Virus record (IMG/VR): IMGVR_UViG_3300042882_000407
Coordinates: 1-25,895 of that record
Direction: 5' to 3' (one strand)
From: a virus
Length of the DNA: 25,895 bases
Position 1 is the first letter of the stretch, and each line of letters begins with the position of its first letter. The position numbers and the translations under genes are program-made. A model generated the notes under the pieces. It saw only the letters and a list, made by a program, of their open reading frames with translations. It was not told the DNA's origin and did not search any database. Positions 711 to 17,159 of this stretch are shown here, piece by piece.

Positions 711-2333
711 TTAGTTCGGCCAGTTCGTATTGACGTATATAGTGTCGACTATTTCCTCATTAGGAACAGTCTCCTCGTGACCGGTATTTATAAATCCGAA
801 GGGCGTGAGCTCCTCCTCGATCATGCGAGCGTTCTCGTCGTATACCCCTCGCCTGAAGTCCACGTTAGTCATCTCCTTGTAGTAGGTCTGAGCGGTCAAC
901 CAGGCGAATAGGACGCAGCACATGACCAAGTCGTCATGACCTTCCTCGGCCTCGTAGGACTTGCCGTTCAAACTGAATCTGGACATCTCTTGAATCAGCT
1001 GGTAGTCATTGACTATCAGCCTGTCTTGCTCGACCATAGTCTTCAGATTGACGCAGCCGATGGCCTTGACCACCTTGTCGGTCCTGACACCTTGCCTGGT
1101 CTTAGTTTGACCGGCGAAACCACCGGTGAGCTGTATGCGCTTCTTTATCTGAGCCGTCGTCAAGATTCCGTCATATTCTAGGTCGTAGTGCAGGATGTCC
1201 ACGATCTGCTGTCCAGCGTCGTTGACTTCCACGAGGATGCCGGCCCTGTTGTAGTTCATAGCAGCCTCGATGATGTACTTAGGATACGCCAGGACTGGTA
1301 CCTTGTTGTCGCGGAACGTGGCAACTACCTCGTAGGGCATCTGAGTCACATCGAATACCACGAAGGCCGAGTAGTCTAGGCCGGCGCCGTGGCTGACGTC
1401 CACCACTGTAACATACTGGTGACCAGGCATGGGCCTCTTGTACATCTTGAACGAGGGCGAGGACTCTATCGGCAGCGCATACGACAGGGCCGCCAGCTTA
1501 TTCGGATCGATCAGCGTGGCAGAAGATCCTAGGAATTCGCACCCAAATTCTACTCTAAATTGATCTGGCGAGGTGTTGCGGATCTGCTGCTCGGCCCACT
1601 TCTCGTCTCTGCCGGGCACGTCTGACCAGTGAACCGAGATGCGAGTGTAGTCGTTATGACCGCGCTCCGAGTCGGTCCATATCTTATAGAACATGTTAAG
1701 GCCGTTCGGAGTCGAGGTGATCACGACCTTAGTAGTCGTACCGGACGAGATCGTCGGGTAGACCGAGCTGAAGAACTCTTCCTGAATGTGGCTAGGTACG
1801 AACGCGAACTCGTCGAGGTAGATGAGGTTCTGAGAAGTACCACGGATAGCGCTCGACGAGGTGGCGGCCGCTAGAACCTTGGATCCATTCTCGAGCTCGA
1901 TGTTACCCTTATTCCACTCCACCACTCCCTGCTGGAGCCACTTCGGCAGGGCCTCGTAGGACCTCTGGATACGGGACAGGATCTCTCGAGCCTGGGCCAT
2001 CTTGTTGGCCAGGATGGCTACCGAGTAGTTCTCCTTGAAGAGGATACACCAGAGGATGAAGGCAGCGGCCGTGGTCGTCTTACCGACCTGACGAGGCATC
2101 TTCGCGATGGTAAATCTGTCATTGACGAAAGAGTCGACCATCTCTTCTTGGAATGGCCAGAGCTCGAATGGTATGAAGCCTCGGTCGACGTTAACGATCT
2201 TGATGTAGCTCTTGATGAAGTACGTGTGATCAGCAGCACACTTCAGCCACTCGTCGATCTGTTCTTTCGTGTAGGGCATCGGCACCCCGGCTCTCTTGAG
2301 CCGAGGGTTGCCTAAGTACGCGGGTAGCTTCAC
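711..2333 (-). CDS. 17: Terminase large subunit (gp17)
   Basis: DNA-packaging motor: an ATPase that translocates DNA into the prohead and a nuclease that cuts the concatemer. The 540 residues include a Walker A motif PRQVGKTT near residues 80-87, a Walker B motif IYLDEF near 171-176 with catalytic E175, and a coupling motif ITSTPNG near 205-211. The RNase H-like nuclease has acidic residues at D312 (VVDVSHG), E369 (LVEVND) and D467/D468 (EGHDDLV). Length is a little under T4 gp17 (about 610). The start is GTG at 2333, in a GTGA overlap with the gp16 stop. An internal ATG at residue 19 is possible but would lose the coupling. It follows gp16 and precedes gp18 as in T4. Confidence 0.97.
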   Translation of the reverse strand: MKLPAYLGNPRLKRAGVPMPYTKEQIDEWLKCAADHTYFIKSYIKIVNVDRGFIPFELWPFQEEMVDSFVNDRFTIAKMPRQVGKTTTAAAFILWCILFKENYSVAILANKMAQAREILSRIQRSYEALPKWLQQGVVEWNKGNIELENGSKVLAAATSSSAIRGTSQNLIYLDEFAFVPSHIQEEFFSSVYPTISSGTTTKVVITSTPNGLNMFYKIWTDSERGHNDYTRISVHWSDVPGRDEKWAEQQIRNTSPDQFRVEFGCEFLGSSATLIDPNKLAALSYALPIESSPSFKMYKRPMPGHQYVTVVDVSHGAGLDYSAFVVFDVTQMPYEVVATFRDNKVPVLAYPKYIIEAAMNYNRAGILVEVNDAGQQIVDILHYDLEYDGILTTAQIKKRIQLTGGFAGQTKTRQGVRTDKVVKAIGCVNLKTMVEQDRLIVNDYQLIQEMSRFSLNGKSYEAEEGHDDLVMCCVLFAWLTAQTYYKEMTNVDFRRGVYDENARMIEEELTPFGFINTGHEETVPNEEIVDTIYVNTNWPN

Positions 2334-2740
2334 TCTTCACTCTTCTTCTGTAGCATGGCCTGGAGCTCAGCAGTGGATCCCACGAACAGGTTATTCGTGA
2401 CCTGCTGCTTGGTCTCTTCTTCTTTCTTAGGCTGGAGCTCGCGCTTCTTCTTGGTGAGGTCGAGGAGGTCCTTATTAGTCTCGGCCATAGTCTTGATCAG
2501 ATTGGCCACGACTTCATAGGCTCTGGGATGCTGACTCTGGTCGGCGATGTCCATCAGTCTGGCTATGGCCTCCTGGCCCTGGCCGATGATGTCGTACATG
2601 TTCCTGCGGGCGTACTCGAAGTCGTTCTCGACTTGATCTTCCGACTGGTGAACTACTATCTCAGTCTTGGCAGGAGTAGGCTCCTGTTGGATCTCTTTCA
2701 GAGGTGTGAGATTGAGAGCATTAGCGATGGGGTCATTCAC
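2330..2740 (-). CDS. 16: Terminase small subunit (gp16)
   Basis: DNA-recognition and regulatory partner of the large terminase. The 136 residues start at GTG 2740 (V-N-D-P-I-A-N-A-L), which overlaps the gp15 stop as GTGA and has AAAGGA 6 nt upstream. The reading frame opens further up to 2803, but that would add a basic, non-homologous 21-residue stretch inside gp15. The core (FEYARRNMYDIIGQGQEAI and QHPRAYEVVANLIKTM) matches the helical oligomerisation core of T4-like gp16. It is followed by a Lys/Glu-rich coiled segment around residues 90-115. The stop overlaps the gp17 start by 4 nt, so both subunits are probably made in a fixed ratio. Confidence 0.93.
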   Translation of the reverse strand: MNDPIANALNLTPLKEIQQEPTPAKTEIVVHQSEDQVENDFEYARRNMYDIIGQGQEAIARLMDIADQSQHPRAYEVVANLIKTMAETNKDLLDLTKKKRELQPKKEEETKQQVTNNLFVGSTAELQAMLQKKSEE

Positions 2741-3588
2741 GGTTGGTCCTTTCCGGCCGGATACGAGAAGCGTTCGAATGCGAAGTCGTAGTCGTCTGTC
2801 CAACTGATCTCAGAGTAGTCTACTGACTCTGCTACGTTGGACGTCGGCTCTCCGTTGGCTCTCATTCCTGGTTGTACTGTGATAGTCTCGGCCACGAAGT
2901 AACTCGCCGTGTCGCCGATAGCAGTGTTGGTGTCTTGAGCGAGCTTGAACTTGATGTTCGTCTCGGCCTTCTTGATGATCTTGCTCTTGCGGGTCGGTCC
3001 GTAGAGGTATCCCTTCATCGTGAACTTGAGAGTCCAGACGAGAGCCCTGCGATCAGTGAAGTTGCCTTCCCACGTGTCGCTGACTTGCACGTCATTGAGC
3101 AGGGTAGGCACGTCGATCACGATCTCCGGATCGTCGATGATTCTGATAGTAGCTGTCCAGTCCGGCGTGAAGAACGGCAGGATCTGCTCCATGATCTTCG
3201 CGCCATCCTCGGCGTTCTTGACCGCGCAGCTCAGCGTGAAGTTCAAGTTGTATGGCACTGGATTGTAGTTGTACCTGGCCAGATTCTTGTTAGAGTCCGT
3301 GTTGACGATCTGATTGATCGTATTGAGCTTACGCGTCGTGTCGTACTGCACTGAGTTCAACTCGAAGCTCATATATGGAACAGACAACGCGAACGGCTTG
3401 TTGAGATTCGGATCCTCGTTGATACGCGCGATGGCCTTATCCTTCGGACCATACGTGATCGGTACCTTGATGAGCTTGACCATGTTGCCGGCGGCGTCGT
3501 ACCTGCGAATGTAGATGTCGTTGAACATCGTACCGAACAGGATGATGTAGCGCCTTATAGAGCCGTGATACCAAGTCTGTCCAAACAT
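2737..3588 (-). CDS. 15: Proximal tail sheath stabiliser / tail completion protein gp15
   Basis: Caps the head-proximal end of the tail and helps join it to the neck. The 283 residues (T4 gp15 about 272) open with MFGQTWYHGSIRRYIILFG and IYIRRYD. LPFFTPDWTATI appears mid-protein and PTLLNDVQVSDTWEGNF follows. These are all recognisable in T4-like gp15 proteins. The ATG at 3588 overlaps the stop of the upstream endonuclease as TAATG, and an AGGA 9-12 nt before the start lies inside the endonuclease gene. Its stop overlaps the gp16 start. Order 14-15-16 is as in T4 apart from the endonuclease insertion. Confidence 0.95.
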   Translation of the reverse strand: MFGQTWYHGSIRRYIILFGTMFNDIYIRRYDAAGNMVKLIKVPITYGPKDKAIARINEDPNLNKPFALSVPYMSFELNSVQYDTTRKLNTINQIVNTDSNKNLARYNYNPVPYNLNFTLSCAVKNAEDGAKIMEQILPFFTPDWTATIRIIDDPEIVIDVPTLLNDVQVSDTWEGNFTDRRALVWTLKFTMKGYLYGPTRKSKIIKKAETNIKFKLAQDTNTAIGDTASYFVAETITVQPGMRANGEPTSNVAESVDYSEISWTDDYDFAFERFSYPAGKDQP

Positions 3589-4292
3589 TAGTTAGTTCCT
3601 ATTTTCTGAAGATCACGTAGGCGTTTCTTTTCAGAGATCTTCTTCCTGATCTCTTCACCGCGCGGACCAGAATACAGTGCCCTCTGTGCTTCTCTCATCT
3701 TGGCTTTCGTCTCTTCACTTCTCTTTGACCCTATGTTAGAGTCGTTGTTTCTTTTTCCGGACGTGTAGTCGGCGCTGATCGCTCTTCCGATATTTGCAGA
3801 GTGCTCTTCACTGAGCTTTCTACCAGACAGCGACTCTGAAATCTTCTTCTTTACGTCTTCTGTTTTAGACTTCTTAGCGGATGGGTTCGGCCTACCTTTA
3901 CCAGATAATGAGATTTTCTTTCTTATCTCTTCAGAATCTGATCGCTTTGTCCAGTGGTTAGCCTTGACTTTATCAGATACTGACTTGATGCTCTCATCGT
4001 ACTTGTGCCAGACTTCATTTGTAGTTATTTTGATATTGTAATATCTGACCTTGATTTCTTCTGGTTTTATCATATCGAGCCAGCGCTGCTCTTCTATGTA
4101 TGTACTCTTTCGATCTTGAATATTTGACTTTAAGATCTTGCGTCGGAAATCTTCTGGTCTGTGCTTATAAGCCTGTTTCATCCAAGAAGAGCTGCAAACA
4201 TATCCATCATCTTCTCTACCCCAATGACATCCGACATAGTATCTCTTGTGCTTTCTGTCGTACCAGAGGTAGACGAAACCGTACTTATGCAT
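3588..4292 (-). CDS. GIY-YIG homing endonuclease with NUMOD3 repeats (between gp14 and gp15)
   Basis: A free-standing homing endonuclease, expected to cut an allele lacking it and so spread itself. The 234 residues have a divergent GIY-YIG core: FVYLW near residues 6-10 and YYVGCHWG near 18-25, then DDGYVCSSSWM and a HRPEDFRRKIL helix with candidate catalytic Arg. A candidate catalytic Glu lies near E67/E68. Residues about 115-230 contain four or five NUMOD3-type DNA-binding units (EEIRKKISLSGKGR, KKKISESLSGRKLSEEH, EETKAKMREAQRA, EEIRKKISEKK). The gene is visibly AT-richer than gp14 and gp15, as expected for a mobile insertion. It shares the core with the endonuclease at 5076-5594. Its start codon lies in a predicted hairpin. 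Activity and target are unknown. Confidence 0.88.
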   Translation of the reverse strand: MHKYGFVYLWYDRKHKRYYVGCHWGREDDGYVCSSSWMKQAYKHRPEDFRRKILKSNIQDRKSTYIEEQRWLDMIKPEEIKVRYYNIKITTNEVWHKYDESIKSVSDKVKANHWTKRSDSEEIRKKISLSGKGRPNPSAKKSKTEDVKKKISESLSGRKLSEEHSANIGRAISADYTSGKRNNDSNIGSKRSEETKAKMREAQRALYSGPRGEEIRKKISEKKRLRDLQKIGTN

Positions 4293-4333
4293 ATCTTACT
4301 CCATAGAATCAATTGTCCTATAGTATATATGCA
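4288..4333 (-). promoter_or_regulatory. Predicted hairpin masking the start site of the gp14/gp15 endonuclease
   Basis: On the minus strand TGCATAT (4333-4327) is complementary to ATATGCA (4294-4288), which contains the ATG start. Inside this, ACT (4324-4322) pairs with AGT (4300-4298) and ATAG (4321-4318) pairs with CTAT (4306-4303), leaving an 11-nt loop. That is 14 base pairs in three short helices. Part of the GGAG ribosome-binding site is in the stem. T4 endonucleases such as I-TevI are known to be held silent by a similar RBS hairpin. The function here is inferred. Confidence 0.5.
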
Positions 4334-4344
4334 AAGTATATCTT

Positions 4345-5076
4345 CTACCAGCGCCTTCCTTCAGCAAACGGATCGATCTCAGTGAAGTCCAGGAACGTGT
4401 TGCCCTGCTGCTGGAACATGTCTCCGTCGTCGAGCAAGTCGTTCTTCTGAGCGTACTCCTCGAATAGGATAGGCAGGCCTTCGGTCTCGTCGACGAGGAT
4501 GTCTCCAGCTTCTGTCGTGAGACCAGCGTCAGTGAAGTCGAACTCGTACTTCTTCGTGAGGATGTCTATCTCTGGGATGCCAGTGGAAAAAGTCTCTCCG
4601 CTGTACTCGAAGAGCTCACAGATCACGTCGAAGGTCTGTAGCGAGCCGAGTTGATAGAAGATGGCCTCGTGCTCCACGAACATGATCTTGAAGATCTTCT
4701 TATTGAGTGGGAAGTATATGAGGTCGCCTTCGTAAGGACGAGTAGTTCCCTCATTAGATCCGACTTCGTCTGAGAAGATGCGACGCGCCATAGTGAATGT
4801 GACGCGATCGCGGATCTCGACGCCGAACTTAGACAGGAAGTCGCCATCGCCCTGGAACCCGTCCACGTTCTTGATGTAGAGCTCGATTGGATAAGCGCGG
4901 TCATAGAAAGATGCGGCGTCTTCAGTGTACACCTGATCGAGACCGCCGTAGCGACGAGGCAGATAGTGCATGTCCTGACCGTACACTTTAATAGCTTCAA
5001 TAATCAGATCTTCAATCAAACCTTGTTCATTACTTGCATTCCAATTATTGAAATAGAAGTTCGTACCGGTACCCAT
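4345..5076 (-). CDS. 14: Neck protein gp14
   Basis: Head-completion/neck protein that, with gp13, closes the filled head and provides the tail attachment site. The 243 residues (T4 gp14 about 256) contain the family hallmarks FYFNNW near the start, LIEDLIIEAIKVYGQDMHYLP, AYPIELYIKNVDGFQGDGDF and FGVEIRDRVTFTMARR. A charged C-terminal tail follows. The ATG at 5076 overlaps the stop of the upstream endonuclease by one base (TGATG), with a purine-rich stretch (AAGAAGAAAG) upstream. It is therefore separated from gp13 by one endonuclease gene and from gp15 by another. Confidence 0.95.
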   Translation of the reverse strand: MGTGTNFYFNNWNASNEQGLIEDLIIEAIKVYGQDMHYLPRRYGGLDQVYTEDAASFYDRAYPIELYIKNVDGFQGDGDFLSKFGVEIRDRVTFTMARRIFSDEVGSNEGTTRPYEGDLIYFPLNKKIFKIMFVEHEAIFYQLGSLQTFDVICELFEYSGETFSTGIPEIDILTKKYEFDFTDAGLTTEAGDILVDETEGLPILFEEYAQKNDLLDDGDMFQQQGNTFLDFTEIDPFAEGRRW

Positions 5077-5594
5077 CAGACTTCTTTCTTCTTTGCATAA
5101 TATAGGCGTCTAGCTTCAGACATCTTTGCAAGAGATTCTTTACTGTGCTTTTTGCCTTGCATTGGATTTACGTCATAAGATCCATTTGCTCTACGCGTCG
5201 CAACCATCTTTGCTTTTGTAGTTTCTGTCATCATGGTTTTATTACGCTCAGCAAGATCTGGTCTTTTATTTCCTAGATTACCAGCAGAGATTTTTTTCTT
5301 TGCTTCTTCACTATGACTTTTTAAGTAAAACTCACCATTACCATTATGCATATTATAGAAGCTCTCATCCATCTTAGCATTAACTGAATTGAGTATCTTT
5401 GCTTCTAATGATCTGCAGTCTATATACAAACCATGAGCAATAATCTGTCTAGTAAAGTCACTAGGCCTCTTCTTATACTCTCGCATCATCGGCTTACTAG
5501 AGCAGACGTAGCCGTCATCCTTAGTTCCTTTATGAACGCCGACATAGAGCTTTTCAGTCTTATGATCTGTCCAGCAGTAAACAAAAGCTTCCAT
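5076..5594 (-). CDS. GIY-YIG homing endonuclease with NUMOD3 repeats (between gp13 and gp14)
   Basis: A second free-standing homing endonuclease of the same subfamily as the one at 3588-4292. The 172 residues have the core FVYCW (residues 4-8), LYVGVHKG (16-23) and DDGYVCSSKPM (27-36). KKRPSDFTRQII follows with a candidate catalytic Arg, and RSLEAKIL near 61-68 has a candidate catalytic Glu. NUMOD3-like units lie at about 93-106 (HSEEAKKKISAGNLGNK) and 145-165 (GKKHSKESLAKMSEARR). AT-richer than its neighbours. It starts 9 nt after the gp13 stop, and its stop overlaps the gp14 start. The SD sequence AAGGAG sits in a small hairpin at the gp13 stop. Its target site is unknown. Confidence 0.85.
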   Translation of the reverse strand: MEAFVYCWTDHKTEKLYVGVHKGTKDDGYVCSSKPMMREYKKRPSDFTRQIIAHGLYIDCRSLEAKILNSVNAKMDESFYNMHNGNGEFYLKSHSEEAKKKISAGNLGNKRPDLAERNKTMMTETTKAKMVATRRANGSYDVNPMQGKKHSKESLAKMSEARRLYYAKKKEV

Positions 5595-5596
5595 AG

Positions 5597-5610
5597 CGGC
5601 TCCTTAGCCG
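5597..5610 (-). promoter_or_regulatory. Hairpin holding the Shine-Dalgarno sequence of the gp13/gp14 endonuclease
   Basis: The minus strand reads CGGCTAAGGAGCCG: a perfect 5-bp stem (CGGCT/AGCCG, four G-C pairs) closing an AAGG loop. The loop and the 3' arm together form the SD AAGGAG, 5 nt before the ATG at 5594. The stem also contains the gp13 stop codon TAA. Ribosomes finishing gp13 would melt it, which would couple endonuclease translation to gp13. The structure is seen; the role is inferred. Confidence 0.45.
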
Positions 5611-6590
5611 TACATGTCGAGTACTGGGAGCGAGTAGCTGCTGATCATCTCAGCCTCTAGCTTGTCTATCTCTTCAGCTGCCTCGTCGTATATCTGTTGC
5701 CCATTGAATGTGATGCCGCCCGGTAGTTGCATACCCGAGAACTTCTTGAGATTGACACCCCACTGCTTCTTGATGAGTGAAGTAGCGTATCGCGACAGCC
5801 ATCGATCTCCCCACGCGTCCCTGTACTCTTCAGGATCGATGACTCGGTAGCACTCGATGAGGATGAATCTGCCGGTAGGCAGCTTGCTCCAGTCGGTGTC
5901 GATGTACATCTTGTCGGTGTGACGATTGAACCTGACCGGCTGCTGACCTACTAGGAGCTGCTGAATGAGAGCTAAGTGCTCCATCGCCATGTAGTACGGG
6001 GTCAACTGCACGCTGGTCAGAGTGTACAGATCGTTCAGGGCTATCTGGTAGCGGATGTTGAAGATGTCGTTGACCGAGAGAGACGGGTCGCCGATCGGGA
6101 AGATGCCAATCACGCCCATGACGTTCTCAGGCAGCTTGATGTAACCACCCTTGTAGCCACGAAGGTCTGCACCTGAGCCGCCAGCCGTTGTGATCGTGAC
6201 TCTAGGGTCCAGCGTATAGAGAGCGCCGTTATTCGCTATTGTCACGGATACGATGCCGCCGGTGCTGTTAGTAGTCAACGTGGCGGTAGCACCAGTTCCA
6301 GTCGTATCACTCGTATTGGCAGTGATGACTATCGTATCGGAGTTAGAGTAGCCAATACCGCCATTGGCGATAGTGATCTCCTTGATGGCGTCCCTGCGGT
6401 CGCCATCTTGGATCATGTACTTGTAGTACAACCTCTCGGAGCCATCGAAGTGATAGTCCCAGTAGTACTTCAGCGCCTCGTCGATGCGGTCGTCCACCTG
6501 ATCGTCGTCGACGTTGATCTCGATCACGGGCTTGCCCAGCTTGCGCAGGCAGTACTCCTTGAACTCGGCTTTGGTGGTTGGCGTAGACAT
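5604..6590 (-). CDS. 13: Neck protein gp13, with an inserted beta-rich domain
   Basis: Head-completion/neck protein, partner of gp14. The 328 residues start with MSTPTTKAEFKEYCLRKLG and PVIEINVDDDQVDDRIDEAL, typical of marine T4-like gp13. IKLPENVMGVIGIFPIGDPS, YYMAMEHLALIQQLL, FNRHTDKMYID and a DPEEYRDAWGDRWLSRYAT segment follow. Between about residues 70 and 142 (6383-6165) there is a Gly/Thr-rich segment (ITIANGGIGYSNSDTIVIT and VSVTIANNGALYTLDPRVTIT). It looks like a beta-sandwich repeat added to the neck core. ATG at 6590 has GGAG upstream, and an exact late promoter box lies about 24 nt before it. Confidence 0.94.
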   Translation of the reverse strand: MSTPTTKAEFKEYCLRKLGKPVIEINVDDDQVDDRIDEALKYYWDYHFDGSERLYYKYMIQDGDRRDAIKEITIANGGIGYSNSDTIVITANTSDTTGTGATATLTTNSTGGIVSVTIANNGALYTLDPRVTITTAGGSGADLRGYKGGYIKLPENVMGVIGIFPIGDPSLSVNDIFNIRYQIALNDLYTLTSVQLTPYYMAMEHLALIQQLLVGQQPVRFNRHTDKMYIDTDWSKLPTGRFILIECYRVIDPEEYRDAWGDRWLSRYATSLIKKQWGVNLKKFSGMQLPGGITFNGQQIYDEAAEEIDKLEAEMISSYSLPVLDMYG

Positions 6591-6632: not shown

Positions 6633-7145
6633 TTACTTTTTCTTTTCTGCAGTAGAGACTGTAGTGACGACTCTTCCATGAGTCATGCCACCGTAGCCGG
6701 TCTTCTCTAGTATCCTAGAACCGAACCAGAAGCCCATGACGGCGCCGAATAGAGACATCGTGTCTTGATCCCAGACGGCCTTTAGCATCTCGGTCATCGA
6801 GGCTCCTTGCGTGATCATGACGCTTACGACTGCAATCTTGATGGCGATGAATGCGAAGAAGAAGACGTAGGTTATAACAGGGCGAATAGAAGCGCGTAGT
6901 GCGTTAATAAACTTTCCACCGTCAACGTTATTATCATAAGATCGAACAGATTTTGCGTCTTCAACGTCCGCCTTAGCGTCTTCAATAGCGATCTGGACTT
7001 GAGCATTCTGTACCGCAGCCTCCATCTGCAATTTGATAGTGTCTACCTGGAACTTGAGTTCCTGCTTGCGCTCGAAGATTCGAACTATAGCAGGCAGGAG
7101 GCTTCCCAGTATACCTAGAAATGGTGATAGTAGTGTGATCAACAT
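6633..7145 (-). CDS. Three-TM holin-like membrane protein
   Basis: A 170-residue membrane protein with an N-terminal hydrophobic segment (about 2-21), a helical coiled region rich in Glu/Gln/Ala (about 25-70), and two hydrophobic segments near 92-116 (RPVITYVFFFAFIAIKIAVV) and 130-148 (MSLFGAVMGFWFGSRIL). A basic tail follows. The layout and the FWFGSR-type last segment resemble the 'holin of 3TMs' family described for gene transfer agents and phages. If so it would permeabilise the inner membrane to release the endolysin. It lies last in the lysis-type module and just before gp13. The SD AAGGAG overlaps the stop of the upstream gene. Family assignment is from memory; a structural membrane protein is the alternative. 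Confidence 0.65.
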   Translation of the reverse strand: MLITLLSPFLGILGSLLPAIVRIFERKQELKFQVDTIKLQMEAAVQNAQVQIAIEDAKADVEDAKSVRSYDNNVDGGKFINALRASIRPVITYVFFFAFIAIKIAVVSVMITQGASMTEMLKAVWDQDTMSLFGAVMGFWFGSRILEKTGYGGMTHGRVVTTVSTAEKKK

Positions 7146-7154
7146 CTTGTCTCC

Positions 7155-7562
7155 TTAGTAACCTGTAGCTCTTCTGATTCTCGGGAGCAGCGAGGCCACG
7201 AAGCCTCCAGTCTCCTTGGCGGCTTTGATAGGCGCTAACACCTCTGGAGCCGCCACGAGCGCCGCAGTGCCAGCAACGTCTCCTAACACGGAAGCTCCGG
7301 GCTCGTCTTTCTCGCCCTTGGCCAGCTTCTGCTTCTCTTGTTCTAGCTCTCTATTGTAGGTAGTCTTCCTACCGAGGGCCTTCTTAATTACGGTGTCGGC
7401 TCCGGCTCTGACGTACTTATAAGTACCCAGAGAAGCCTTGTCAGCGAAGTTTCTACCGAACGTGGATACGCTCTTCATCGAAGGAACGTAGTCTTTCCAA
7501 CCCTCTTCGAGCTCGTAATCTGTCTCTTCTTGGAGCTGTCTAAATTCTTTGAAAGTCAGCAT
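7155..7562 (-). CDS. Small protein of unknown function with a capsid-targeting-like N-terminus
   Basis: I do not recognise a family for these 135 residues. The N-terminus MLTFKEFRQLQEE resembles the MKTFKQF start of the upstream LysM protein and the T4 internal-protein leader. L-E-E followed by G at residues 18-21 and L-Q-E at 10-12 fit the T4 prohead protease pattern (L/I-x-E). The middle is basic and helical (KKALGRKTTYNRELEQEKQKLAKG, residues about 60-83). An Ala-rich, weakly hydrophobic stretch at about 91-115 could lie in or on a membrane. SD AAGGA is 8-12 nt before ATG 7562. A role as an internal head protein is inferred, not shown. Confidence 0.7.
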   Translation of the reverse strand: MLTFKEFRQLQEETDYELEEGWKDYVPSMKSVSTFGRNFADKASLGTYKYVRAGADTVIKKALGRKTTYNRELEQEKQKLAKGEKDEPGASVLGDVAGTAALVAAPEVLAPIKAAKETGGFVASLLPRIRRATGY

Positions 7563-7585: not shown

Positions 7586-8281
7586 TTACCAGTTTATCTT
7601 TTCACCAGGTTTCAGTCTTCTTGCTCTTTTCAAGAACCCTGGATTTTTCTTTTCTAGGTCATCGGGCGTAGTGCCGAGTGACTTTGCAATCTTCGTCGGG
7701 TTATCGCCAGACTTTATCTCGTATGAACGACCAGAAGACGCCTTTTGATTTTTCGCTGGAGCGGGCTGAGGCTTCTTCGATGCCGGATAACCAGACTGCG
7801 GAGCTACACGAGATCCGACTTTTGGTTCCAATTTTGAAACAGTAGATGGAATTGATTTTTGAAATGGTGCATCCATTTTTTGTCTGAATCTCTTGTGAGA
7901 AACATCAATGTCCATTCTCATCATATTGAGTTTGTCTTGCATCGTTTGTGGTGCTGGTGGTTTGTCAGGGAAATTTCTCTTAGGAATTGCTTTTAGTTTT
8001 TCACCTGTTCTAGAATATCCTTTTGATGCTAATAGTTTTCCAACTGCATCATCTGATCCTACCATAGGCTTGTCTGGTGATACCTTATACGACTTGACTT
8101 TAGGATCGGCAAACGGTGAATTTGCGCCGGTAGTATCTACGGGCTTATTTGGATTCTCTTGAGGCGGGACTATACCTTTCGAAAGAAGTTCCATCTTGGT
8201 GCCATCACCGAATTGCTTTTTTGGTGCTACGTCGGGGAAGATACGGCTTGCTTCTGCGACAAACTGCTTGAACGTCTTCAT
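7586..8281 (-). CDS. LysM-domain protein with a capsid-targeting-like leader
   Basis: A 231-residue protein. Its C-terminal 47 residues (about 185-231: SYEIKSGDNPTKIAKSLGT, then LKPGEKINW) form one LysM domain, which binds N-acetylglucosamine polymers such as peptidoglycan. Residues about 30-180 are rich in Pro, Lys and Ser and look disordered, with an amphipathic stretch at 112-140. The first residues, MKTFKQFVAEA, closely match the T4 internal-protein leader MKTYQEFIAEA as I recall it, including the A-E/A cleavage position. There is no signal peptide. The gene overlaps the small holin-like gene (ATGA). The middle of the gene (about 7800-8150) is clearly AT-richer than its surroundings. No catalytic domain is visible, so a cell-wall-binding rather than cutting role is likely. 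Confidence 0.8.
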   Translation of the reverse strand: MKTFKQFVAEASRIFPDVAPKKQFGDGTKMELLSKGIVPPQENPNKPVDTTGANSPFADPKVKSYKVSPDKPMVGSDDAVGKLLASKGYSRTGEKLKAIPKRNFPDKPPAPQTMQDKLNMMRMDIDVSHKRFRQKMDAPFQKSIPSTVSKLEPKVGSRVAPQSGYPASKKPQPAPAKNQKASSGRSYEIKSGDNPTKIAKSLGTTPDDLEKKNPGFLKRARRLKPGEKINW

Positions 8282-8583
8282 TTATCATCCGTCGGTGTTA
8301 GAGTTGTTTTTGTCTTTTCTTGTATCATTAGATCACCTTCTAATACCCTGGTGATCTTCTCTTGACCTCTGGTCCAAGCCGAGACTCCGATGATGGCCGC
8401 CATGGCTATGTGATAGAACCCGCCGTCCTTGAGAGTGATCGGATCCCAGTTGTTGTCGGTCTTCAGATAGTAGCTTAGTGAGAAGTCGAAGAGAGGAAAT
8501 ATGATGAAGTCGAAGATACACACGACTAAGTACTGCCAAGCGATCGCTGGCCTCCAGTACTGCTTGACCCATGACTCTTCCAT
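8278..8583 (-). CDS. Small holin-like membrane protein
   Basis: The 101 residues have a short charged N-terminus and a hydrophobic segment at about 14-38 (AWQYLVVCIFDFIIFPLF). A polar loop and a second hydrophobic segment at about 56-70 (FYHIAMAAIIGVSAW) follow, then the TRGQEKI motif and a charged tail. The RPAIAWQY start and the GVSAWTRGQEK end resemble small phage proteins annotated as holins. It starts on the stop codon of the endolysin (TAATG), the classical endolysin-holin neighbourhood. Its stop overlaps the LysM gene. It would form inner-membrane lesions at the end of infection. Which of this and the 170-residue protein at 6633-7145 is the true holin cannot be decided here. Confidence 0.7.
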   Translation of the reverse strand: MEESWVKQYWRPAIAWQYLVVCIFDFIIFPLFDFSLSYYLKTDNNWDPITLKDGGFYHIAMAAIIGVSAWTRGQEKITRVLEGDLMIQEKTKTTLTPTDDK

Positions 8584-9374
8584 TATATCATCATCCTATT
8601 GAGAGTGTCGGTGTCGATGGCACCGGTAGTTGGTAATTTGTTCTTCGTCTGAAAGTCCTTGACCGCCTGTTCGGTCTTAGCGCCGAAGTCACCGTCGGCT
8701 ACGATGGCAGCACCCTTCCTGACGAGCATATCTTGCAGGTCCTTGACGTAGGAAGACTTGTCGCCTCTCTTCGCCACGACTATGGGCGGAATTAGTGGAT
8801 CTACCGGCGCAGGAGGCGGTTCCGATGATTCATAAGTTGACAATTTCAGGTCTTTGGGTATAATGGCTTTGGCCTTCACAAGATACTGCTTACGATCGTC
8901 GATGCCGTTGAAGCCGCCATTGATCCTCTTGGTGATAGTCATGACGTCGTCATTATCTGCGAATGCTGACAGTCCTCTAGAATTCCAGTACTCACACGCG
9001 GTCTTGATAGAGACTAGTGGATCCTTGGCCAGTTCTGGGTTGTTCTCTAAGTCGTAACCTAGCTTCTGACCATAAGTCCTGTAGTTGGCCCTGCCTGTCA
9101 ACTGGAAGATGCCGCGACCCTTGTAGCGCCTACCGTCTCCTGGCTGTGTATTGCCTAGGTCCCTACGACCCTCGTAGGCAGCTCCGGTGGCGTACTCTTC
9201 CAAAGTCCTGAAGCTGGCAGACTCGTGAGCCGCCTGAGCCAAGAAGTGACATACCCTGAGATAGGTGTTGATGTTGTACTTCGCCAGCTGATCATTCAAG
9301 TTATCGGCTAGGTGAGCTATGATCTCCTCCTTCGCAGAAGGAGCCAGCTTTCTGAGCATATCTTTGGTTATCAT
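8583..9374 (-). CDS. Endolysin: GH19 chitinase-like catalytic domain plus peptidoglycan-binding domain
   Basis: Cleaves the glycan strands of peptidoglycan to release progeny. The 263 residues have a GH19 (chitinase/lysozyme) domain at about 1-175. HFLAQAAHESASF carries the probable catalytic Glu51, with E59/E60 nearby as the second acid. The family motif RYKGRGIFQLTGRANY is at 84-98 and RINGGFNG at 150-157. A Pro-rich linker (about 183-200) leads to a PG_binding_1-type domain (about 203-263: VKDLQDMLVRKG, VADGDFGAKTEQAVKDFQ). No signal peptide or membrane segment is seen, so export would depend on a holin, as expected beside the gene at 8278-8583. T4 itself uses an unrelated GH24 lysozyme. 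Confidence 0.95.
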   Translation of the reverse strand: MITKDMLRKLAPSAKEEIIAHLADNLNDQLAKYNINTYLRVCHFLAQAAHESASFRTLEEYATGAAYEGRRDLGNTQPGDGRRYKGRGIFQLTGRANYRTYGQKLGYDLENNPELAKDPLVSIKTACEYWNSRGLSAFADNDDVMTITKRINGGFNGIDDRKQYLVKAKAIIPKDLKLSTYESSEPPPAPVDPLIPPIVVAKRGDKSSYVKDLQDMLVRKGAAIVADGDFGAKTEQAVKDFQTKNKLPTTGAIDTDTLNRMMI

Positions 9375-11107: not shown

Positions 11108-14100
11108 TTAAGCTATGTACTGGAGCCAGATGTCACCAGTCGAGCCTCCTGTTGGACTGGTTGCTGGCGTAGACACGTATCTATTGCCCGTAGCGTTATT
11201 ACCCCAGACGACGCCAGAGACGCGTATCGCGGTAGAGTTGATCAGAGCATTCGAGGTGGAGTTGCCGACCAAGATCCTGGATGGATTTACGTCTACTGCC
11301 ACAGTGCTATTACTGGTCAACAGAGCGTTGAAGTCGAGCGCCATGTTGGCAGTGGTGTTGCCGATGAATAGCCTGCTGGTAGAAATCGATACGTTAGAGC
11401 CGACATTCACCGTAGTAGTGAATATTGGCGCCGTGACGTTCGCGTAGTAGGATGGTAGCTGACCACTGAAGTATGTAGCGTTATTCGAAGTCAGAGTCGC
11501 CACGTTAGCGGAGAGACCTCCGGATGTCTGATAGAATGAAGATAGCTGACCGTTGAAATACGTAGAGTTATTCGAAGTCAGAGTCGCTACATTGGCCGAG
11601 AGGCCTCCAGCCGTCTGATAGAATGCTGGTAGCTGACCACCGAAGTACGTAGAGTTATTAGCAGTGCCTGTGAAGAACGTGCTATTCACGATGCTGTTGA
11701 TCGTGCTGTTACCTACGAATAAGACGCTCGTATTTAGAGAGACATTGGCGCCTACCGTGACATTCGCGGTAGCATTGATAGTCGTCGCTATGACGTTACC
11801 GGTCAAGTTCGCGTTCACCGAAGTAGCGCTGAGAGAAGTGACGTCAGTCACGGCACCCGCGATCGACGCCGCTCCCTCTACTCTCAACTTATGAGCCGGT
11901 ATGTTATTGCCTACGCCGAAGTTGCCATTCGCCGCTGCTAAGAGAACGTTGGCGCTGGCGTTTACTACCCTGAAGGTCGCTGTTATGGAGTTGTTAGTTC
12001 CATTCAGTGTCGAGTTGCCATTGAAGACTAAGTTACCGGCTAGAGTATAGTTCGCTGAGGTGTTGACGTAGTTAGTAGCACTCACACCGGCGAGTTGAGT
12101 AGAGTTCAGCGCAGTCATCGTGGCCACGTTTGCAGCCAGAGTTGAATTCAGCTGATAAGATCCGGAGGCAGTACCACCTAGGTGAGTGGCGTAGATTCCG
12201 GTCGTATTTGCGAACTCAGTAGCGCCAATCCTATAAGACACGGCGTTGACGAGGGTAGAGTTAGCCAGGAACGCAGACCCTATCGAAAACGCTGAAGTGT
12301 TTATGAGTACGCTGGCTCCGACTGTCACGTTTGCCGTGGCAGACACGGCAGTGGCAGTGACATTACCTGTCAGATTACCCGATATGCTCGTCGTCGAGAT
12401 GAAGTTAGAGTTGATAGTGGTAGTACCGGCAGTGTTTTGGACTACGACCTGTGGAGCTGAAGTCACACTATTATTGCCGAGCACTACATCCGTGGAGCGC
12501 ACCTGCACTCTCGAAATCGTGTTACTCAAGAGGATGAGAGAAGTGTTGACCAGGACGTTAGCGCCCACGGCGACGTTAGAAGAGACGTTGATAGTGCTCG
12601 CTACCACATTACCAACGAACGCTGTCGAGTTGGCAGAGATGTTGATCGTGGCGTTACCTATGCTGACGTTAGCATTGGATAGCCAGCCGTTAGAAGCGAA
12701 CTTATAGACCCAACTGACGCCAGTGGTGTCCACGGTGAGTCCGGCTCCGTCGGCAGCGGCTGAAGTAGGTACGCTCTTGGCGACCGTGATATTCAGATCT
12801 GTGACGTCGAGAGTGGCCGTGTTCAGTGAGGTAGTAGTACCAGTCACTACTAGATTGCCGTTGATGGTGAGGTTAGCGGTCACCACATCGGTAGAGTTGG
12901 CCTTGAAAGCCGTGCCTACTTGGAAGGTAGCCGCGTTGACGGTCGTGGCATTCACTGTAGTAGCGTTAGCAGTCGTGACCGTCAGACTCGAAGAATTGAT
13001 CGAAGTCGAGTTGATCGAGGTAGAGTTGATCGATGTAGAGTTGACTCTTCCAGCCACCACGTTACCTACGAAGGCGCTGCTATTGGCGTAGACATTTCCA
13101 CCAGCAGACCCGACTACTACATTTGTAGTAGAGAAAAAGTTCGTGGTGTTAACTGTAGTAGCATTGACCGAGGTAGAGTTGACCGTAGTAGCGTTGGCCG
13201 TCGTGACATTAGAAGTAGTAGCCGTCATCGACGAGGCATTCACGGAAGTAGCGTTCACCGACGTCGAGTTGATCGAGGTAGAGTTCAAGGAAGTGGTGTT
13301 GACGCTGACGGCGAACACATTACCTACGAACGCGCTACTGTTGACGGTAGAGTTGACTGACGAGTTGCCTATAGTGATAGAAGTAGTGCCGATCGCCACA
13401 TTAAAAGTGCTATTACTGATCCTAAGAGAGTCTATGGTCAACTGGCCATTAGTCGTAGAGTTACCGATCGATATACCGTCTAGATTGACGTTAGCGAAGC
13501 GCCCAGAGCTGTTAGACACTTTGACGGAGTGACTGAACATCACGGAGTTGACGCTGCTGTTACCGACGGCGTATCTACCGTTTATCGGTACGTTCACATC
13601 GACGACATGCGCCGAACCCCACAGAAAAGAACTGTTTCCAAGGGAGAATGATTCGGTGACGCTCGGAGTGAAGTCGCCGCCAGCTACAGAGTCGCTAACT
13701 GAAGTCAGAGTACCATCGACGATCACATCACCATCGACCAAGATGTTTCCATTGACTCTAGCGTTTCCTCTAACTCTGAGTACGTACTGAGCAGCGGCTG
13801 GCTCTATTACTACGTTCGCAGTGGTGTTACCCATGGAGAGGATCGTCGAGTTGATCCAGACATTTGAGCCTATGTTGATCGTGGCGCCGACGGTGTTGAT
13901 TACCACGTTTCCAGCGTTTATGCCAGATGGGCTGAAGTTAGCACTAGATACCGAGTTAGTCAGTTGAATAGTAGGAGTGTTGGCGACCGTGCTATTACCC
14001 ACGGTTATGTTGCCGCCTGATACATTCATCGACGGGATGAGAGTGTTACCGGTTATCTTTAAGCCGGCAGTATCGAGCATCACATTAGCGCCGACGTCTA

Positions 14101-16000
14101 CTCTCGAAGTGCTTATCGACACTAGACCTATGTTAGCCGAAGTAGCGAACACTCCATGAGGAGCATACACGTTGCCGGTGATGTTAGTATTTCCAGTGAT
14201 GGCTACATTACCGGCGAAGTTGGCTTGACCCCTGACCGCATTAGAGATGTAGAGGTTGGCTACCGCGATATTCGCCGTAGCATTGGCGGATATGACAGTG
14301 ATGATAGAGCTGTTCATCACCGTGTTGATTGAAGCGTTGCCAATCAGCAGCGTCGAAGAGTTGGCTACTACGTTAGCGCCGACGCTCATGTGAGTCGCAT
14401 TGACTGTAGAGATTCCGGCAGTGAATACGCCTGGAGACACGTTAGAACTAGAAGTAGAGTTCTGTACTCTGACTAGTGCGGTGTCCGTGACAGAATCATT
14501 TCCGATGGTCAGATTAGAAGAACGCAGAGTCGCGGTAGCGACCGTCGAGTTGCCGTTGATAGCGATCGTCGCGGCGTTGATATTAGAGTTTCCGACTGAG
14601 AACGTAGTGGTGTTGACGAGGGTAGCGCCCACCACCACGTTTCCACTGAATATGCCTCGAGGAGCGTTGACGTTAGCGCTGGCGTTGATATTTCCAGTGA
14701 CGTTTAGGTTAGCGCCTACGTTAGTCTGACCTGCTAAGTTAGCAGTGCCGTTGACGGTCAGCTTGGAACTTCTAGAAGTGGTAGGAGGACCTATGGTGAA
14801 GTTGCCAGTTCCGCTGAACCTAGCGATCTCGTCCTTGGCCATCATTCCACCGACGTGGAAGATGATCGGGTTGTTGGCCTCGGTCAGGTCGTAGTACTCG
14901 TCTCTGAGAGTGATAGTGCCAGAACCGGCGCCAGTCGTATTCTTAGAGATCCTGAACGCCGTGGAGTTGATCATAGAGGTGACGTACGTGCCGGTGTCGA
15001 TGCCGGTGCCAGTGACGTCCATGTCGATAGTCACGCTGTTAGTGGTCAGAATGTCATTCGTGGGATTACCAGAGTTGACAGTGATAGTATTGACGCCAGC
15101 GCCGAACGAGGTCTGCACCGTCACCGTAGTCGACCTGATGCCGCCTGGAGTGGTACCGATGGTCAGCGCCGAGTTGGCGTTATAGAGGTAGCCGTCGCCG
15201 CGCTTACCTACGGTGAACGCATAGTTTCTACGAGAGAGCGTGTTCGCTTCTGGAGAGAAGAAGGCCACGGAGTGAAGGACGTCGGCATTAGCTGCAGAAG
15301 ACACCGCTCGAACGGCCAAGTTCGAACCGGTCGTATTAGAGAAGTTCGCCATGCCTACGTACGTCGGAAGGCCGTCGTCTTCACTTACGCGGATCTTTAG
15401 AGAGATCGCGGTAGAATTGATAACAGTGATGTCGCGGATCTGACCGACGGCTATGTTTGCGCCGGCGCCGTTCTTCTGGAAGACCGTCTCGCCGAGCTGC
15501 CAGCTAGCGGCAGCCGCGTTGACGATGATCCTGTGAATTCGACCGTCGAACCTAGAGTTGTTGATTCCAACGTCGTTGAAGTTGCTGAGGCCGTTGGTGT
15601 TGTCGGCGTAGATGATGAGGTCGGCACAGGCGTCGTCCAGCTGGGACAGGTTCTGAGAGCTGACCATGACGAAGCCGTTGAAGTTTTCCACGGCCTGGAT
15701 GATCGTCGGCAGGTTCTGGACCATCGTTTCAGTGTTACCGACGAAGAGCTTCCTGTCGACGAAGACGTTAGCCTTGAAAGAAGCATTAGCCACGACGTTG
15801 AGCGTGGTCTCGGTACTGTTTACGCCGATCTGTATGGTGTTGCCTAGGAAGGCGGCGTTGCCGGCGATGTTGGCCGTCCCATTGACGGTGAAGACCGCGC
15901 TTGGAGTGGTGGTGTTTATGCCCACGTTCGAGCCGTTGACCACCAGCACGTTGGTGTTCACGACTAGTCCATTCTTTACGACGAAGTCTTTGTCCGCCAT
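11108..16000 (-). CDS. Giant repeat-built virion structural (tail fibre-like) protein, 1630 aa
   Basis: The start MADKDFVVKNGLVVN is characteristic of structural proteins in marine T4-like phages, and the end TGGSTGDIWLQYIA is also a common virion-protein tail. After an N-terminal beta-rich part (about 1-430), the protein is almost wholly built from repeats rich in Asn, Ser, Thr and Val (GNSTVNS, NITGNV, VGANV). It has two tracts of five-residue repeats (N-[SA]-[ST]-[ST]-[VI]) and a 29-residue tandem repeat near the C-terminus (LSANVATLTSNNSTYF). A single NIPAHKLRVEGA module of the VGIG-xxP-xxKLxV type occurs near residue 1370. Such sequences fold as elongated beta structures, so a long fibre is likely. 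Several modules recur in the 2855-residue protein. No C-terminal S74 chaperone is visible. Confidence 0.85.
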   Translation of the reverse strand: MADKDFVVKNGLVVNTNVLVVNGSNVGINTTTPSAVFTVNGTANIAGNAAFLGNTIQIGVNSTETTLNVVANASFKANVFVDRKLFVGNTETMVQNLPTIIQAVENFNGFVMVSSQNLSQLDDACADLIIYADNTNGLSNFNDVGINNSRFDGRIHRIIVNAAAASWQLGETVFQKNGAGANIAVGQIRDITVINSTAISLKIRVSEDDGLPTYVGMANFSNTTGSNLAVRAVSSAANADVLHSVAFFSPEANTLSRRNYAFTVGKRGDGYLYNANSALTIGTTPGGIRSTTVTVQTSFGAGVNTITVNSGNPTNDILTTNSVTIDMDVTGTGIDTGTYVTSMINSTAFRISKNTTGAGSGTITLRDEYYDLTEANNPIIFHVGGMMAKDEIARFSGTGNFTIGPPTTSRSSKLTVNGTANLAGQTNVGANLNVTGNINASANVNAPRGIFSGNVVVGATLVNTTTFSVGNSNINAATIAINGNSTVATATLRSSNLTIGNDSVTDTALVRVQNSTSSSNVSPGVFTAGISTVNATHMSVGANVVANSSTLLIGNASINTVMNSSIITVISANATANIAVANLYISNAVRGQANFAGNVAITGNTNITGNVYAPHGVFATSANIGLVSISTSRVDVGANVMLDTAGLKITGNTLIPSMNVSGGNITVGNSTVANTPTIQLTNSVSSANFSPSGINAGNVVINTVGATINIGSNVWINSTILSMGNTTANVVIEPAAAQYVLRVRGNARVNGNILVDGDVIVDGTLTSVSDSVAGGDFTPSVTESFSLGNSSFLWGSAHVVDVNVPINGRYAVGNSSVNSVMFSHSVKVSNSSGRFANVNLDGISIGNSTTNGQLTIDSLRISNSTFNVAIGTTSITIGNSSVNSTVNSSAFVGNVFAVSVNTTSLNSTSINSTSVNATSVNASSMTATTSNVTTANATTVNSTSVNATTVNTTNFFSTTNVVVGSAGGNVYANSSAFVGNVVAGRVNSTSINSTSINSTSINSSSLTVTTANATTVNATTVNAATFQVGTAFKANSTDVVTANLTINGNLVVTGTTTSLNTATLDVTDLNITVAKSVPTSAAADGAGLTVDTTGVSWVYKFASNGWLSNANVSIGNATINISANSTAFVGNVVASTINVSSNVAVGANVLVNTSLILLSNTISRVQVRSTDVVLGNNSVTSAPQVVVQNTAGTTTINSNFISTTSISGNLTGNVTATAVSATANVTVGASVLINTSAFSIGSAFLANSTLVNAVSYRIGATEFANTTGIYATHLGGTASGSYQLNSTLAANVATMTALNSTQLAGVSATNYVNTSANYTLAGNLVFNGNSTLNGTNNSITATFRVVNASANVLLAAANGNFGVGNNIPAHKLRVEGAASIAGAVTDVTSLSATSVNANLTGNVIATTINATANVTVGANVSLNTSVLFVGNSTINSIVNSTFFTGTANNSTYFGGQLPAFYQTAGGLSANVATLTSNNSTYFNGQLSSFYQTSGGLSANVATLTSNNATYFSGQLPSYYANVTAPIFTTTVNVGSNVSISTSRLFIGNTTANMALDFNALLTSNSTVAVDVNPSRILVGNSTSNALINSTAIRVSGVVWGNNATGNRYVSTPATSPTGGSTGDIWLQYIA
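11457..11655 (-). repeat. 87-bp tandem repeat (29 aa) near the C-terminus of the 1630-aa protein
   Basis: Two full copies and a partial third begin at 11457, 11544 and 11631 on the plus strand, each 87 bp. Each copy encodes a unit with GGLSANVATLTSNN, TYF and GQL. A related unit occurs once in the 2855-residue protein near 24250-24320. Confidence 0.85.
12935..13050 (-). repeat. 15-bp (five-residue) tandem repeat tract 1
   Basis: Minus-strand units of 15 bp encode N-[SA]-[ST]-[ST]-[VI] (for example NSTSINSTSINSTS). The plus strand shows GTTGATCGA-type units repeating every 15 bases between about 13003 and 13045. Within the 1630-aa fibre-like protein. Confidence 0.8.
13144..13310 (-). repeat. 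15-bp (five-residue) tandem repeat tract 2
   Basis: A second, longer run of five-residue units (NSTSINSTSVNATSVNASS, later NATTVNSTSVNATTVN), separated from tract 1 by about 90 bp encoding a non-repeat spacer (FFSTTNVVVGSAGG). The units are degenerate at the DNA level, so this tract is older or more diverged than tract 1. Confidence 0.8.
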
Positions 16001-16295: not shown

Positions 16296-17159
16296 TTAGG
16301 CTGGTCTTAGTGCGCAAGTAATTGCCGCAAAAGAATACTGAGTGCTATCAGCGTAGCTTGCAGTAAATGCAGCTGGATCAAAAGAACCACTGGTATAGTC
16401 AGCCCTTGCCATACCTGCGCAACATGATCCAGTGTCAGATTGAGAAGAGGAAACCATGCCTAGCATATTGGAGCATGAAAATGTCTGTCCGTTTCCGGCA
16501 CCATTACCAGACGCACCGACTGCCACAATGACGGCACGAGAGACACTTGGTGTAATCGCGGGAGGGTTTGGTAGACCAGTATTACCAAGTCTGGCGTTGG
16601 CAAATGTTATAATTGGAGAAGATGCCGAGACGTTTCTGAAGACAAAGACGATCATCACCCCGGCATCGTTGGCGTTCCCAGTTGGACCAAAAGTTACGCT
16701 CGCATCTGGAGTTGCCCCCATGCGCTTATAGGCAAGTCGTAAATTAGTACCATAGGTGTCGGTCTGATAAAGTTCTGCATCGATAATAGTATATGCTGTA
16801 GTGCCATCGGAAATTAACTTTGCGAGTGCAGACACGCCGGAAGAGGCAAATGCCGCAATGACGAAGTCGCCGGACTGGGCGGCGGAACCTATACCGCCAG
16901 ACAGTCCCGAACTAATAGTAATTGTAGTGTTTCCAGATGTACTACCAACTTTTGTTGCAACTGCCGTACCAACTAACTCAATTGATTTTCTTGTCGGTAG
17001 CATTCCCATTGTGAGAGGCATACCCAACAGAGGCGCGTGGTTCCAGAACTCAAGATTCTCGCGCTTGACGATGGCAGGTTTCGGGAGTACGAGCTTCGGC
17101 TTCTCCGGCACGATGAGGCCAGAAGCGAGCATGGCAGCGATTGCGGGCTTCAAGATCAT
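16296..17159 (-). CDS. Appendage-type structural protein, 287 aa, coupled to the giant fibre gene
   Basis: The frame is open from 17186. The better start is ATG 17159, which overlaps the stop of the 2855-residue gene as ATGA and has AGGAG 10 nt upstream, giving MILKPAIAAMLASG. After a Pro/Lys-rich linker (VPEKPKLVLPKPAIVKREN, about 17-35) the rest looks beta-rich. It has ISSGLSGGIG and SGDFVIAAFAS, then LRLAYKRMGATPDASVTFG, VMIVFVFRNVSASSPII and a C-terminal YSFAAITCALRPA. Similar SGD...Y.RMG...VFRNV domains occur in phage tail-associated proteins. Three Cys residues cluster at about 235-253. A distal fibre or receptor-contact role is inferred from position. Confidence 0.75.
   Translation of the reverse strand: MILKPAIAAMLASGLIVPEKPKLVLPKPAIVKRENLEFWNHAPLLGMPLTMGMLPTRKSIELVGTAVATKVGSTSGNTTITISSGLSGGIGSAAQSGDFVIAAFASSGVSALAKLISDGTTAYTIIDAELYQTDTYGTNLRLAYKRMGATPDASVTFGPTGNANDAGVMIVFVFRNVSASSPIITFANARLGNTGLPNPPAITPSVSRAVIVAVGASGNGAGNGQTFSCSNMLGMVSSSQSDTGSCCAGMARADYTSGSFDPAAFTASYADSTQYSFAAITCALRPA

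Follow-up and report, generated by a model that had tools for sequence, protein, structure and literature searches.

Why does a protein with a domain for binding peptidoglycan, encoded among the lysis genes of a phage, begin like the internal head proteins of T4? The gene that raises this question lies at 7586..8281, on the minus strand, of the viral record IMGVR_UViG_3300042882_000407 (IMG/VR), whose positions 1 to 25,895, the whole stretch analyzed, are here called the window. It encodes a protein of 231 amino acids (aa) with a leader like a capsid targeting sequence (CTS) and a LysM domain, and has homologues on four other viral contigs (L001-L003 and L353). The best reading, and in our judgment a probable one, is that the product is a CTS-tagged LysM wall-binding protein that is processed by a gp21-type protease, packaged in the head, and ejected. 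We infer targeting, cleavage, and ejection in the present phage by analogy, the first two from homology of the signal and from the virion proteomes of other phages.

The leader, the linker and the LysM domain

The leader, MKTFKQFVAEA, occupies codons 1-11 (8249..8281, minus strand), as delimited by comparison with T4 and by scans of the viral collection. A first-pass annotation of this DNA had given the T4 leader as MKTYQEFIAEA and counted seven identities in 11 positions. Translation of ipII and ipIII from NC_000866 gave the same leader and the same count, with 8 identities over 12 residues against ipIII. The alignment with the CTS of T4 IPI, IPII, and IPIII is gapless and the E|A site is common to all. 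In T4 IPIII, mutagenesis assigned targeting to positions 4 and 7 and processing to 8 and 10 (PMC9026906). All four determinants are matched in kind (aromatic at 4, F7, aliphatic at 8, E10), so the leader is T4-like where it matters. The predicted prohead-protease cut falls between E10 (8254-8252) and A11 (8251-8249) on the minus strand. Beyond the leader the likeness ends: the cargo is not homologous to the T4 internal proteins, has no internal-protein family match, and ends in LysM. The F-x-x-F-aliphatic-x-E-A pattern is also shared with T4 gp23, which carries FGSFLTEA near residue 65, the place of the known gp23 cleavage (FGSFLTE|A). That site is about 65 residues into the protein, whereas the present leader is N-terminal.

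A basic linker follows the leader (residues 12-186; 7724..8248, minus strand). It is probably disordered, given an AlphaFold pLDDT mostly below 65. Alignment with relatives divides it into conserved residues 12-90 and an AT-rich stretch that is replaced in relatives (codons 81-150, 8041-7832), with 34.8% GC versus 46.7% and 47.6% in the flanking parts. The cargo as a whole is strongly basic (net +22). The LysM domain covers residues 187-230 (7592..7723, minus strand; PF01476, E 9e-6) and scores 26.0 bits against a Pfam cut-off of 20.9. Only over this domain is the AlphaFold model confident, with blocks of pLDDT near 89-90. In a fold comparison the model came closest to solved LysM structures, although the poor quality of its remainder kept every E value from falling below 0.01. 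A PDB sequence search matched the region to LytE. Profile and fold both support the LysM domain, and peptidoglycan binding is predicted. Pfam and PHROGs detected LysM alone in the protein, with neither a catalytic wall-hydrolase domain nor a match to a tail protein family. The coordinates, the LysM domain, and the AT-rich middle given by the first-pass annotation all hold.

Leader proteins in other phages and in virions

To see how widely the leader occurs, we searched viral contigs in IMG/VR for it as a degenerate pattern of 32 nucleotides (nt) that allowed any NTN codon at position 8. At least 119 matches were found. A residue-permuted control pattern had none in the same contigs, and the leader pattern had none in 257 Gb of prokaryote genomes, a scan run without a positive control, where the uniform expectation on two strands is 0.02. 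These counts exclude chance resemblance. The viral matches include an internal head protein of T-even type whose leader is MKTFKEFINEA (phrog_2667, E 2e-41), a built-in positive control. When the ATG was dropped from the pattern, there were 74 distinct matches, of which 62 even so came directly after an ATG; most of the remaining ones were at GTG or TTG codons or lay within a few codons of a start.

The matches listed include 120 complete leader proteins, which form about 55 cargo clusters; between clusters, alignment is confined to the invariant leader. The DNA coding for the leader differs in every one of the 55 cluster representatives, so its conservation is at the protein level. Of the 55 leader families, again among the matches listed, 44 have I or L at position 8 and six have V. 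Leaving positions 8-11 free gave 81 distinct sequences; E10 was present in 44 of them, and E9 in many of the others. A shorter variant with Glu9, MKTFKQFxE, is common on other small proteins (e.g. in L255, L275, L279, and L302). Our literature search, confined to open papers, found no description of the tag outside T-even phages.

SAM lyase, methyltransferase, RlpA-type double-psi beta-barrel (DPBB), and glucosaminidase domains are found above Pfam cut-offs among the cargoes, with weaker matches to cytidylyltransferase and HAD. The RlpA-type barrel (DPBB_1, lytic transglycolase; e.g. L032:3575-3997) is the commonest, in 16 of 120 proteins, and wall-directed cargo is therefore recurrent. Like the present protein, the barrel and glucosaminidase proteins have an MKTFK[E/Q]F leader and then a peptidoglycan-directed domain, although theirs are hydrolase or transglycosylase folds, not LysM, and the sequences are unrelated. 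A late-promoter-like TAAATA is at most 60 nt upstream of 50 of the 120 leader genes versus a background of 26%, which is suggestive only. Near the terminase of 80 relatives, two of 848 open reading frames (ORFs) carry the leader versus 0.09 expected.

The phage lineage encodes a gp21-type (S77) protease. The TerL of contig L185 is 100% identical to that of the window over residues 223-540, and this contig has sheath, tube, portal, and core-region genes between the terminase and the protease. Two of its core-region proteins, encoded beside portal and protease, carry FNQFMTEA or YAQFIAEQ. An S77 protease is also encoded in L353, a T4-like contig of 167 kb, and in 10 of 17 long leader contigs. 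The L353 capsid protein has VLNEA at the expected cleavage site, and MKxFxxYLNE is encoded by several leader genes of this contig; the triplet L-N-E is thus common to leader and capsid site.

All four homologues keep the leader. In the three close ones (L001-L003) it is almost unchanged and the middle of the protein is replaced in two. The L353 homologue is encoded behind the same endolysin and membrane gene and is 56% identical over residues 1-172. It retains the leader (MKTFKQYLNEM) and residues 12-90 and has a different C-terminus without LysM. Leader and cargo are thus separable, and the gene is an established occupant of the locus with a changing tail. The first-pass annotation had taken the AT-rich middle as a sign of recent acquisition. 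This does not stand for the gene, as only the middle and C-terminus vary; judging by the alignments, the AT-rich stretch is the mark of a variable segment, not of a recently arrived gene.

Proteins with such leaders are found in cyanophage virions. The mass-spectrometry list for S-CREM2 virions has 52 proteins (PMC10665884), and five of the six leader-bearing S-CREM2 proteins are on it: the SAM hydrolase ORF6 (MKDFDSFLEE), ORF13 (MKDLHSFLTE), the APH-type kinase ORF14 (MKRFDAFLTE), ORF136 (MQTFSMFFSE), and the cytidylyltransferase ORF154 (MKNFSSFLTE). ORF175 was undetected. S-SM1 encodes one credible leader protein, a cytidylyltransferase (MKKFSAFLNEA) reported in its virion (PMC3037559). For S-SZBM1 one of three leader proteins is in the virion proteome, again the cytidylyltransferase. 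Pooled over the three phages, seven of 10 leader proteins are in virion proteomes, an enrichment with P=6e-4, a somewhat optimistic value as the S-CREM2 list was already known when the looser, literature-derived motif was fixed. A strict regular expression tuned on S-CREM2 gave 5/5 there and, once frozen, 0/1 on S-SZBM1; 7/10 from the looser motif is therefore the figure to use. The S-CRM01 kinase starts MISFDQFLSE and is mentioned in PMC10665884 as reported in virions. The N-termini of the virion enzymes of these four phages follow an F-x-x-F-[L/I]-x-E leader, as here. They are enzymes and were detected in virions, whereas the present protein is wall-binding and known from sequence.

Two further features of these proteins were observed. 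In the Cas9-like S-CREM2 ORF12, RFASFMAEA lies roughly 17 residues from the N-terminus, and the S-N03 and S-H34 homologues keep the motif at a comparable position; in these Cas9-like proteins FASFMAEA or FSNFLKEA is some 17-25 residues from the annotated start, which may mean that the propeptide is longer or that the annotated start is too far upstream. Soon after the leader, and before different enzymes, a short block like GLxYxGFGYWADxxGKxTH is found in S-CREM2 ORF14, SSM1_190 of S-SM1, 56993 of the L353 genome, and L053. This block may be a further module that head-packaged proteins have in common.

Gene neighborhood

The LysM gene belongs to a run with endolysin and holin-like genes, in agreement with its earlier placement in the lysis module. 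Its start codon (8281-8279) overlaps the stop of the upstream gene as ATGA, coupling its translation to that of a small holin-like membrane protein (8278..8583, minus strand; phrog_3427 holin, and GTA_holin_3TM weakly, below the cut-off). The membrane protein gene itself comes after the endolysin gene (GH19 and PG_binding_1 by Pfam and PHROGs; 8583..9374, minus strand), upstream in the same run. The next gene (7155..7562, minus strand) encodes 135 aa and possibly a second, variant leader, starting MLTFKEFRQLQEE with F4, F7, and L-x-E at 10-12. The C-terminal half of its product is hydrophobic, and the product matches phrog_5880 weakly. A search for the variant leader MLTFKEFR as a wider family found only four contigs of the same lineage, and the gene is absent at the corresponding place in L353. 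By its N-terminus the product may also be packaged in the head. Another holin-like membrane protein (6633..7145, minus strand; phrog_6637, phrog_3427) is encoded downstream of the leader genes.

Beyond it, Pfam and PHROGs identify gp13 (5604-6590), gp14 (4345-5076), gp15 (2737-3588), gp16 (2330-2803), and gp17 (711-2333), all on the minus strand. These neck and terminase homologues at 711..6590 show the phage to be T4-like. A nucleotide search found no near relatives among named phages, and tblastn of the LysM protein in named phages found only the LysM of phi29-type endolysins (E ≥ 0.3). Amid gp13, gp14, and gp15 are two proteins that by eye resemble GIY-YIG homing endonucleases (3588-4292 and 5076-5594, minus strand); both are missing there in L003, and L001 has a different one. 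At 11108-16000 and 17156-25723 (minus strand) are very long repetitive proteins of 1630 and 2855 aa, rich in NSTxxNVSS-like repeats, which are probably tail fibers.

Readings of the protein and their meaning

If the probable reading holds, the first ten residues would act as a capsid targeting sequence that brings the protein into the prohead core, where the gp21-type protease of the phage would cut after Glu10. The mature protein, from Ala11, would be a basic, mostly disordered chain with a terminal LysM domain. It would stay with the packaged DNA and leave the head together with it, and the ejected protein would bind host peptidoglycan through LysM. By analogy, injection of a wall-binding protein is probable. 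Most speculative is what the binding is for: LysM might tether or aid DNA entry at the wall, or have a role at release.

Several findings count against head packaging. The processing site is V-A-E, whereas T4 gp21 cuts after L/I-x-E (PMC9026906); position 8 is thus V where the T4 sites have L or I. The window is without capsid genes and without an S77 protease, the latter expected for a 26-kb fragment. The virion detections come from the proteomes of other phages, and detection in a virion is no proof of a location inside the head. Two S-SZBM1 leader proteins, one of 105 and the other of 165 aa, went undetected, and taken alone that proteome has no enrichment of leader proteins (P=0.35). Finally, the location of the gene among lysis genes is also compatible with a lysis role.

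The last point leads to an improbable alternative, a lysis accessory made late, a wall-binding partner of the endolysin with an N-terminus that is vestigial or unrelated to the head. The translational coupling into the endolysin run and a best PHROG match, though weak, to endolysin favor it. However, the endolysin already has a wall-binding domain of its own, no hydrolase domain was found in the LysM protein, and LysM, its sole wall part, is missing from the L353 homologue at the same locus, while the leader is conserved as the rest of the protein changes. In T4, moreover, ipIII and ipII directly follow the lysozyme gene e, so a location beside the endolysin is no argument against a head protein, even if the parallel may be coincidence. 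Somewhat less improbable, yet still unlikely, is that the leader does bring the protein into the prohead but as a core or DNA-condensing component, not an injected effector, with LysM a dispensable tail. The basic cargo fits this, as do the L353 homologue, with leader and residues 12-90 but not LysM, and the role in head morphogenesis reported for T4 IPIII (PMC9026906); that other leader cargoes are enzymes does not.

LysM also occurs in tail adaptors and contractile injection systems, the gene is near neck genes, and weak fold matches include baseplate chains of injection systems. A tail or baseplate protein is nevertheless very improbable, given the lack of a tail family match and a LysM that is not conserved in the family. 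Chance resemblance is the least credible of all: the leader is only 11 residues long, but four relatives keep it and the pattern scans refute a chance origin. Head packaging followed by ejection is thus the reading we prefer.

Kinases, a SAM hydrolase, cytidylyltransferases, and a Cas9-like nuclease have been reported in cyanophage virions, where the authors of the S-CREM2 study could not exclude carry-over (PMC10665884). The tag is present on several such proteins, whose entry into virions the earlier studies had left unexplained. Readable from sequence alone, the eleven-residue tag may separate likely true virion passengers from contaminants. It also allows candidates for injected effectors to be listed from uncultured T4-like phages, which rank with the most abundant viruses of aquatic habitats, and it extends the range of leader cargo to wall-binding proteins. 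Tentatively, and with slightly less than even confidence, we suggest that aquatic T4-like phages share a modular head-address tag delivering a large, fast-changing set of injected proteins (SAM lyases, kinases, a Cas9-like nuclease, and wall-acting proteins). The LysM protein would then belong to a class that is ejected with the DNA and acts on the host wall during entry.
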